Of a DNA stretch of 64,000 nt, positions 33,392-36,497 are shown piece by piece (positions within the stretch are counted from its first letter, which is position 1; each line of letters opens with the position of its first letter). Made by a program: the position numbers and the translations under genes. Source of the DNA: Thiobacter sp. AK1 (GTDB lineage: Bacteria > Pseudomonadota > Gammaproteobacteria > Burkholderiales > Thiobacteraceae); the NCBI RefSeq assembly GCF_039822265.1, contig NZ_JBAJEX010000008.1, positions 1 to 64,000 of the forward strand, in the 5' to 3' direction. The notes below the pieces were generated by a model. It was not told the DNA's origin. It saw only the letters and a program-made list of their open reading frames with translations, and searched no databases.

Positions 33392-34792
33392 ATGAAACCC
33401 ACCATCGTCCTCGTCGGGCGGCCCAACGTGGGCAAGTCCACGCTGTTCAACCGCCTCACCCGTTCCCGTGCGGCGCTCGTCGCGGACCTGCCCGGCCTCA
33501 CCCGCGACCGCCACTACGGGCATGGCCGCGTGGGCAGCAAGCCCTACCTGGTGGTGGACACAGGTGGCTTCGAGCCAGTGGCGAAAGACGGCATCATGCA
33601 CGAAATGGCGCGCCAGACCTTGGCTGCGGTGGACGAGGCGGATGCCGTGGTGTTCCTGGTGGACGCGCGCCAGGGTCTCACGGCCCAGGACCAGACCATC
33701 GCCGATACCCTGCGCCGCGCCGGCCGACCCGTTTATCTGGCGGTGAACAAGGCGGAGGGCATGGATTCTGCCGTGGTGGCCGCAGAATTCCACGAACTGG
33801 GACTGGGCGATCCGCTGCCCATCTCGGCCAGCCACGGTGAAGGCGTGCACGAACTGATGGACATCGTGTTGGAGCCATTTCCAGCGCAAGAGCAGGTCGA
33901 GGAAGCCGAACATCCCAAGATCGCCATCATCGGTCGGCCCAACGTGGGCAAGTCGACGCTGCTCAACAGCCTGCTCGGGGAAGAACGCGTGATCGCTTTT
34001 GATCAGCCGGGCACCACCCGCGACAGCATCTATGTGGACTTCACACGCAACGACAAGCACTACACCCTGATCGATACCGCTGGTGTGCGCCGCAAGGGTC
34101 GTGTGTTCGAGGCCATCGAGAAATTCTCGGTGATCAAGACGCTGCAGGCGATCGAAGATGCCAACGTGGTGGTGCTGGTGCTGGATGCGCGCCAGGACAT
34201 CTCCGACCAGGATGCCCATCTCGCTGGCTTCGTGCTGGAGGCGGGCAAGGCCATGGTGGTGGCGGTCAACAAGTGGGACGGGTTGGACGACTACCGGCGC
34301 GAACAGGTGAAGCGGGCAGTCGCCCATCGCTTCGCCTTTCTGGCCTTCGCGCGGGTGCATTACCTGTCGGCATTGCAGGGCACGGGACTGGCTGCGCTGT
34401 TCAAATCCATCGACGAGGCCTATGCCGCGGCCATGGCGAAACTGCCCACTCCTCAGGTCACGCGCGTGCTCAAGGAAGCGGTGCTTGCCCATGCGCCACC
34501 ACGCGCTGGCCAGTTTAGGCCGAAGCTGCGCTATGCTCACCAGGGCGGCACCAACCCGCCCGTGATCGTCATCCATGGCACCAATGTCCTGGCCATACCC
34601 GAGAGCTATCGGCGTTATCTGGAAAACACCTTTCGTGAGGCCTTCGCGCTGCGCGGCACACCGCTCAGGGTGGAATTCAAGCAAGGGCACAATCCTTATG
34701 CGGAAAAGAAGCCCGCGCCTCTGACCAAGCGCCAGGAGGCGAAGAAACGCCGCCACCGGCGCTACCTCAAGAAAACATTCGGACGCCAATGA
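33392..34792 (+). CDS. der: Ribosome-assembly GTPase Der (EngA)
   Basis: Der acts in maturation of the 50S subunit and is unique in having two tandem GTPase domains. In the 466-residue protein the first G1 motif GRPNVGKST is at about 8-16 with the following G3 DTGGFEP. The second G1 GRPNVGKST lies at about 181-189, with DTAGVRRK as its G3 and NKWDGLD as its G4. The C-terminal KH-like domain (about 365-440) precedes a basic tail rich in Lys and Arg. A 336-base non-coding gap follows. Confidence 0.97.
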
Positions 34793-34852
34793 AAGTGTCT
34801 ACTGCGCGGCGCGGAACGGAACTCAAATGGGTCAATCCCCGTCACACGAGTG

Positions 34853-34995
34853 CTTGAACCCAGATCATCCATTGGATCGGCGCGTGCCCGATGAACTGCA
34901 CTGCACATCGAGATCCATGGTTTTGGCATCACACCCGTGCCTGCGCGGGTGGGGGCGGGCCCATCCCGGATGTTGATGGATGATCCGGGTTGAAG
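34853..34995. repeat. MITE-like element with 20-bp inverted ends between der and hfq
   Basis: The outer arms at 34853-34872 (cttgaacccagatcatccat) and 34976-34995 are inverted copies with 18 of 20 matches. The 143-base unit contains a further hairpin (CACCCG / CGGGTG, 34932-34951) and has no reading frame of note. It occupies most of the der-hfq gap (34793-35128). The shape fits a short non-autonomous transposon or a REP/BIME-type repeat. No target duplication is obvious. Confidence 0.5.
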
Positions 34996-35040
34996 CGGGC
35001 TGAGCCGGCCCAATTCTTAGGCAAGTCACGGCTTTTGTTC

Positions 35041-35046
35041 TATTAT
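35041..35046 (+). promoter_or_regulatory. Candidate -10 element of hfq
   Basis: TATTAT lies 83 bases before the hfq ATG in a locally AT-richer patch. TTAGGC at 18 bases upstream is a weak -35. The distance implies a leader of about 75 bases. Confidence 0.35.
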
Positions 35047-35063
35047 GTGACCGTCGGGAGGGT

Positions 35064-35087
35064 TCCCGGGCGCTGCGAGTCCCGGGA
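35064..35087 (+). other. Hairpin in the hfq leader
   Basis: TCCCGGG and CCCGGGA form a 7-bp perfect stem with a 10-base loop, 41 bases before the hfq start codon. It is followed by GCCGGATCAGCAAACC without a T-run. It could be a stability element or part of Hfq autoregulation, which is known for E. coli hfq but not demonstrated here. Confidence 0.35.
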
Positions 35088-35128
35088 GGCCGGATCAGCA
35101 AACCAGACATCAAAGCATTGGAGAATCC

Positions 35129-35365
35129 ATGAGCGGCAAAGGGCAATTGTTACAAGACCCGTTTCTGAATACTTTACGCAAAGAGCATATCCCGGTCTCG
35201 ATCTATCTCGTGAACGGCATCAAGCTGCAGGGCCAGATCGAATCCTTCGACCAATACGTGGTGCTGCTCAAGAACACCGTGACCCAGATGGTTTACAAGC
35301 ACGCCATTTCCACGGTCGTTCCGACCCGTCCGGTGCACATCTCCCACGATGCCCCCGACGCCTGA
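35129..35365 (+). CDS. hfq: RNA chaperone Hfq
   Basis: Hfq is a hexameric Sm-like protein that pairs small RNAs with target messages. The 78-residue product has the Sm1 motif ([22 protein letters not shown]) with the proximal-face residues, and the Sm2 motif [15 protein letters not shown] (about 56-70). The acidic tail is very short (HISHDAPDA). A weak purine stretch (TTGGAGAATCC) precedes the ATG. The gene overlaps hflX by 17 bases, in the conserved der-hfq-hflX-hflKC order. Confidence 0.97.
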
Positions 35366-36497
35366 AGGACTGGCGTCCGTTTCTGCTGCGCGGCCCCTGC
35401 ATCGGGCGGTGCTGGTCAGCATCGATTTCGGTGATCCAGACGAGGAAGAAAGCCTCGAGGAATTGCGCCGTCTGACCGAGAGCGCACGGGCCACGCCCCT
35501 GGCCCTGGTGACAGGCCGACGCAGCCGGCCGGACGCGGCCCTGTTCGCGGGTAGCGGCAAGGTGGAAGAGATCGCCCACCGCGTGGCGGAGACCGGCGCG
35601 GATGTGGTGATCTTCAACCACGAGCTTTCCCCGGGCCAGCAGCGCAATCTGGAGGGGCGCCTTAAGTGCCGGGTCATCGACCGCACCAGTTTGATCCTGG
35701 ACATCTTCGCCCAGCGCGCCCAATCCCACGAGGGCAAATTGCAGGTGGAACTCGCCCAACTGGAGCATCTCGCCACGCGTCTGGTCCGGGGCTGGACCCA
35801 CTTGGAGCGCCAAAAAGGTGGTATCGGCCTGCGTGGTCCCGGCGAGACGCAATTGGAAACAGACCGCCGGCTGCTCGCCAAGCGCGTGAAGCTGCTCAAG
35901 GAGCGCTTGGCGCGGCTGGGTCGCCAACGCCAGACCCAGCGTCGAGCCCGTGGCCGGCGCGACGTGTTCTCGGTGTCCGTGGTGGGCTATACCAATGCCG
36001 GCAAGTCCACTTTGTTCAACCGGCTGACCCATGCCCGCAGCTACGCCGCCGATCAATTGTTTGCCACCTTGGATACCACCTCGCGCCGCCTGTTCCTGCC
36101 GGAAGTGGGACCAGTGGTGCTGTCCGACACGGTGGGTTTCATCAAACGCCTGCCCCACACCTTGATCGAGGCCTTTCGTGCCACTCTGGAAGAAGCGGTG
36201 CAGGCCGATCTGTTGTTGCATGTAGTGGATGCGGCCTCACCCGTGCGCGATGAGCGCATTGCCCAGGTCAATGCCGTGCTGGCCGAGATCGGCGCACAGG
36301 ACATCCCGCAAATCCTCGTGTACAACAAGATCGACGCACGTGGCTTGGCGCCAGGCGTCGAGCGGGACGACTGTGGTAACATCTCGCGCGTCTGGGTAAG
36401 CGCCCATGCCGGCACTGGCCTGGACGGACTGCGGCTGGCCATCGCCGAGCGAGCTTCGGCGGCCCGCCTCGAGGCGCGGCCCGAAGCCGTGTGCTGA
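35349..36497 (+). CDS. hflX: Ribosome-associated GTPase HflX
   Basis: HflX binds and can split stalled ribosomes, and is linked to stress recovery. The 382-residue product has the N-terminal HflX domain (GSGKVEEI near 67, then [13 protein letters not shown]), a coiled-coil with [12 protein letters not shown], and a GTPase domain with G1 GYTNAGKST at about 213-221, G3 DTVGFI and G4 NKID. ATG 35349 overlaps hfq by 17 bases; a start slightly downstream cannot be excluded because the first 18 residues are not conserved. Confidence 0.95.

Follow-up and report, generated by a model that had tools for sequence, protein, structure and literature searches.

The element between der and hfq

What is the inverted repeat that separates der from hfq in Thiobacter sp. 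AK1, and could it affect hfq? A sequence-only reading of the window, the whole 64-kb stretch of DNA analysed here, had described a 143-base element with 20-bp inverted ends at this place and had proposed a non-autonomous transposon. The best explanation as a whole, to which we give a probability of about 0.93 from sequence comparison, is that a MITE copy lies between the two genes and that an IS1380-family transposase would have been its mover. The identity as an ordinary bacterial MITE is well supported, and the assignment to IS1380-type transposases is probable.

The two arms (34853-34872 and 34976-34995) do pair as inverted repeats, with 18 of 20 positions identical, and the pairing can be extended to 21 nt at 90% identity. 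When the whole window was scanned for inverted pairs with 20-nt arms, at most two mismatches and 60-260 nt spacing, this was the sole pair of such quality, present in two registers, and none was found in eight first-order Markov simulations. The borders described earlier call for correction: comparison with other copies moves them inward, leaving an element of 131 bp inside two TTGAA pentamers. The features of the locus are as follows.

34854-34858, no strand: target site duplication, left copy, TTGAA; direct repeat of 34990-34994, and one aligned TTGAA in the same-genus genome G001
34859-34989, no strand: 131-bp MITE copy that lacks part of the interior of its family, whose full units are 223-227 bp
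34859-34872, plus strand: left terminal inverted repeat, CCCAGATCATCCAT; the family end is CCCRGATNATCCATTAG
34932-34951, plus strand: GC-rich internal hairpin; inspection by eye shows one in several other family copies too
34976-34989, minus strand: right terminal inverted repeat, which reads CCCGGATCATCCAT on the minus strand
34990-34994, no strand: target site duplication, right copy, TTGAA
35018-35046, plus strand: candidate sigma-70-like hfq promoter, TAGGCA-17-TATTAT, outside the element
35129-35365, plus strand: hfq, 78 aa, named by protein recognition and an earlier label

The terminal inverted repeats of the window copy are therefore 14 bp long with one mismatch, and one of the two arm mismatches is explained by the direct TTGAA flanks outside the element. 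Since TTCAA is the reverse complement of TTGAA, direct TTGAA flanks mimic an extension of the arms with one central mismatch. Positions 34853 and 34995, at the outer tips of the arms, are beyond the duplication and presumably pair by chance. The hairpin noticed earlier in the core is real, with arms at 34932-34940 and 34943-34951. The strand as a whole folds more strongly than 200 of 200 shuffles (z -4.6), which is expected for any sequence bearing such arms. The element falls between the end of a 466-aa ORF that stops at 34792 and the start of a 78-aa ORF at 35129, which we take to be der and hfq, respectively, by recognition and earlier label.

Related copies in the same genome

The 143-bp sequence found 17 matches in its own genome, the window copy counted, and the others were 71-89% identical to it over the aligned part. 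A consensus built from five copies gave 36 matches at about 31 separate places, so the further copies that the sequence-only reading had suggested looking for do exist. The end pattern at up to two mismatches occurred at 43 sites in this genome versus none for the reversed pattern. Seven end pairs are full-length (223-227 bp), and shorter forms, such as the window copy at 131 bp and another at 62 bp, lack part of the interior. The family places are dispersed and partly decayed, and their identities suggest that many of the copies are old.

As to length and coding capacity, the window copy measures 131 bp, and the mechanical ORF list has two minus-strand frames, 83 and 93 aa long, that overlap it; the family copies differ from one another by many indels. 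In a mechanical ORF check of 14 chosen copies, only one lay within an ORF of at least 100 codons, which was 128 codons long; the other 13 did not.

Two further observations concern the surroundings of individual copies. A degenerate copy with TTCAA on both flanks (L059:1236-1348, equal to G000:C13:10140-10252) lies one base from the CTAA flank of a resident IS1380-family element. REP-like repeats (CATTCCCGCGAAAGCGGGAATCC and variants) adjoin family copies at L019, L031 and L041 in the own genome, and none was found in the window at up to two mismatches.

Direct 5-bp duplications at the insertion sites

The sequence-only reading had named a target site duplication as something to look for, and 34859-34989 is flanked by direct TTGAA on both sides. 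Flanks of paired ends were analysed in three sets. In the own genome, 21 candidate end pairs were used, several of them clearly false. Their mean direct 5-bp flank identity was 3.14 of 5, versus 2.52 for the inverted comparison and 2.32 with shuffled partners, and only 1 of 5000 shuffles reached it. Perfect duplications were present in 4 of the 21 pairs, a count that some shuffles equal (mean 1.2, maximum 5), so that the case from the own genome rests on the mean identity and on the middle base.

The second set came from G029, which belongs to the same order and has 42 + 42 end sites; 19 of 20 stretches from it gave 20 pairs, one of them false. Here 15 of 20 pairs were perfect direct duplications and two were perfect in inverted orientation (shuffled mean 5.4, maximum 13). 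The third set used 80 of at least 120 loci from a collection of genome contigs, many from one assembly, Gallionellaceae UBA2239, and gave 37 perfect direct and two perfect inverted pairs out of 60 (shuffled mean 5.8, maximum 13). Among pairs with G or C at the middle of both flanks, the two bases agreed in 10 of 11 in the own genome, 12 of 13 in G029 and 19 of 19 in the contig collection. These direct-flank statistics indicate that the flanks are direct 5-bp TTNAA duplications and not part of the inverted repeat; the signal is strongest in G029 and the contig loci and weaker in the own genome.

The direct duplication also bears on whether the sequence might be a repeat of the REP/BIME type, dispersed by a REP-associated tyrosine transposase. 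Its GC-rich hairpins and the REP-like repeats beside some genome copies would fit such an origin, but inverted ends, direct 5-bp flanking duplications and a full-length unit of 223-227 bp would not, as REPs are shorter and lack such a target duplication. We regard this origin as hardly credible.

The site and the element in related genomes

In G001, the only same-genus genome compared, the der-hfq gap is 221 bp versus 336 bp in the window, and the window gap minus the element and one TTGAA is 200 bp. The gap is shorter in this relative and the element is absent. A single TTGAAG of G001 aligns onto the insertion junction. The G001 gap has otherwise diverged: aligned to the window flanks, it is identical at 112 of 200 bases. 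The case for an empty site thus depends on gap length and the short aligned TTGAA, which together make good but not perfect evidence. In eight genomes of the other genus of the family, the gap is not comparable because the der and hfq matches are separated or missing: they lie about 3.6-3.7 kb apart in G003, G005, G006 and G007 and on two contigs in G002, and only hfq was matched in G004, G008 and G009.

The locus combines terminal inverted repeats, a fixed-length duplication, many dispersed copies and an empty site in a relative, all of which are features of MITEs.

Outside the own genome, the 143-bp query had no match in 40 relatives and none in a plasmid collection at E up to 0.01. The consensus found only three end fragments of 28-35 nt (in G001) and one interior match of 31 nt (in G008) among 20 relatives. 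The end pattern travels further. At up to one mismatch it is present in 10 of 41 genomes, mostly at one or two sites outside G029 and the own genome, and the reversed control pattern occurs once among the 41, in G015. At this threshold G029 has 84 end sites versus 26 in the own genome. Elements of about 205 bp in G029 and of about 173 bp in UBA2239 have the same ends as the window family and the same 5-bp TTNAA duplication. They also have some sequence in common with it immediately internal to the right end, but their interiors are otherwise unlike those of the window family.

The UBA2239 contigs (DDYH01, among L062-L139) contain many of these elements of about 173 bp, and the 98% identity between the two that were compared points to recent multiplication. 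In G044, another genome of the order, a 178-bp stretch (an element plus one TTGAA; L247 from about 1867, on G044:C24) is 99.4% identical to a UBA2239 element and stands beside an IS1380 remnant, which may reflect horizontal movement or common descent.

Position relative to the hfq promoter

The only sigma-70-like site in 34750-35140 is TAGGCA-17-TATTAT, for which 0.2 are expected in shuffles, and the corresponding stretch of G001 is similar to it. Between the end of the element and the putative -35 box there are 28 bp, and 23 bp if counted from the right TTGAA, in keeping with the earlier description of a position just upstream of the hfq promoter region. As this putative promoter lies wholly outside the element, the core promoter appears intact. 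No terminator-like site was found in the der-hfq region. A MITE at this position may have an effect on hfq, possibly through upstream binding sites or der read-through.

Position and copy number also bear on another possibility, that 34859-34989 is a locus-specific regulatory RNA or an hfq leader. A strong predicted fold (z -4.6) and a location upstream of hfq speak for it. However, the element is upstream of the putative hfq promoter and not within a leader, its sequence family is dispersed in the genome, it is absent from the G001 gap, and 34300-35500 has no Rfam match at E up to 1. The sequence-only reading had reserved the RNA interpretation for a sequence that is unique and conserved at this locus. 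This one is neither single-copy nor conserved in place, being absent from the one comparable genome, and we consider an RNA of this kind very improbable. The proposal of a non-autonomous transposon made in the same reading is borne out by the dispersed copies, the direct 5-bp duplication, the shorter G001 gap and the lack of an Rfam match.

A likely link to IS1380-family transposases

The MITE ends start with CC, which, by comparison with ISEcp1, gave a lead to the IS1380 family. Nine elements of this family in G077, G078 and G383, all genomes of the same order, have ends that agree with the MITE end at 14-16 of 18 positions. The best of these, CCCAGATTTTCCATTAG, has one difference in 17 from CCCRGATNATCCATTAG, and at locus L222 both ends are within one difference in 17 of the MITE end. 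Eight of the nine have perfect 5-bp direct duplications, e.g., TTCAA, TTCAT, CTCAT and ATTAA. This subgroup of the IS1380 family (NCBIfam NF033539) is therefore similar to the MITE in its ends and in its 5-bp duplications of the TTCAA/TTCAT/ATTAA type, but its elements are 1.49-1.53 kb long and carry a transposase, while the MITE is 131 bp (family 223-227 bp) and has none. MITE-like ends together with 5-bp duplications mean that the ends and target rule are those of an IS1380 subgroup, and it is likely, judging from these sequence features, that an IS1380-type transposase moved the MITE.

At E 1e-50, a search of 300 genomes of the order gave IS1380-family matches in 19, one of them the own genome, and the G078 transposase matches 23 of 399 genomes at E 1e-10, including a weak match in the own genome. 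The MITE end type is present at 6 of 26 IS1380-family loci, and the remainder have ends of other types, in several cases with 4-bp CTAA/CTAG repeats, or no ends recognisable by the script. In G044 (L247), CCCAGATTGTCCATTAGC, a sequence containing the end that many G029 elements have, stands about 165 bp before a subgroup transposase remnant, versus about 120-130 bp in L199 and L222. A decayed element in G218 (L228) has ends of the subgroup type with flanking pentamers that are inverted, not direct.

L247 was considered as a 708-bp deleted IS1380 element with both ends and rejected as such, because what makes up its right part is a separate MITE next to the remnant; only the left end counts. 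At L189 (G146), the transposase frame of an IS1380-family element contains two in-frame TAG codons.

No intact element with the exact family end on both sides was found. The G078 query recovered no subgroup transposase in G000 (the own genome), G001 or G029, and no protein like either transposase query was found among at least 120 exact-end stretches, each of at most 8 kb. A matching autonomous element was likewise not found in the own genome, an assembly of 32 contigs; going by these searches, the partner transposase may be gone, may sit in a gap of the assembly or may have diverged beyond the reach of the queries.

The sole IS1380-family transposase in the own genome at E <0.001 is on contig C13 and belongs to a different subgroup (23-26% identical). 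Its element has ends CCCGGATATTTCA (left and right, CCCGGATATTTCATCAG and CCCGGATATTTCACCAA) and a 4-bp CTAA repeat. Mobilisation of the MITE by this resident element (C13:10258-11824), across subgroups, ranks second among the explanations and is unlikely. Its transposase is the only one of the family found in the genome, with an open frame of 447 aa; the element's left end agrees with the MITE end at 14 of 20 positions and its right end at 12 of 20, and its CTAA flank is a single base away from a MITE copy. Yet several positions of its ends are different and it is flanked by the 4-bp CTAA, not a 5-bp TTNAA, and the other subgroup offers a better fit in L222, with one difference in 17 and 5-bp duplications of the TTCAA type. 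A transposase of that subgroup remains the preferred mover.

Proposed history and comparison with known elements

We propose that an IS1380-family transposase, of the subgroup with ends like CCCAGATTTTCCATTAG and 5-bp duplications, acted on the MITE ends and that the element would have inserted at TTGAA between der and hfq, duplicating 5 bp. An internal deletion of about 95 bp would then have produced the short 131-bp form. The element is now most likely passive upstream of the hfq promoter, and it would add a strong hairpin to any der-hfq read-through transcript. A broader claim, that IS1380-type MITEs with a palindromic TTNAA target are widespread and multiply without a matching transposase, and that one of them has altered the control of hfq in this lineage, seems improbable to us.

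A previously unassigned intergenic repeat now has a probable link to a transposase family, and its exact ends and target rule allow further copies to be annotated. A mobile element beside the promoter of a global RNA regulator is also a testable case.

In the open literature (ISfinder and subscription papers being outside its scope), no title among those listed named an IS1380-derived MITE, and nothing was found on a MITE in Gallionella. Correia elements are intergenic MITEs to which the present element can be likened by description, not by sequence. The same is true of the Neisseria ATR, an intergenic MITE of 181 bp with 13-bp ends as given in PMC5383966, a paper that, as consulted, does not deal with the der-hfq locus. 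MITEAba12, as described in PMC6382973, is likewise a short gene-less bacterial element with IS-like ends and a target duplication, but its ends resemble ISAba12, its duplication is 9 bp and its length 111-114 bp, compared to 5 bp and 131 bp for the hfq MITE. MITEPye1 was also placed in an IS family by its ends and is mostly intergenic, according to PMC11578231; unlike the hfq MITE family, it has IS1182-family ends and 1-3 copies per chromosome.
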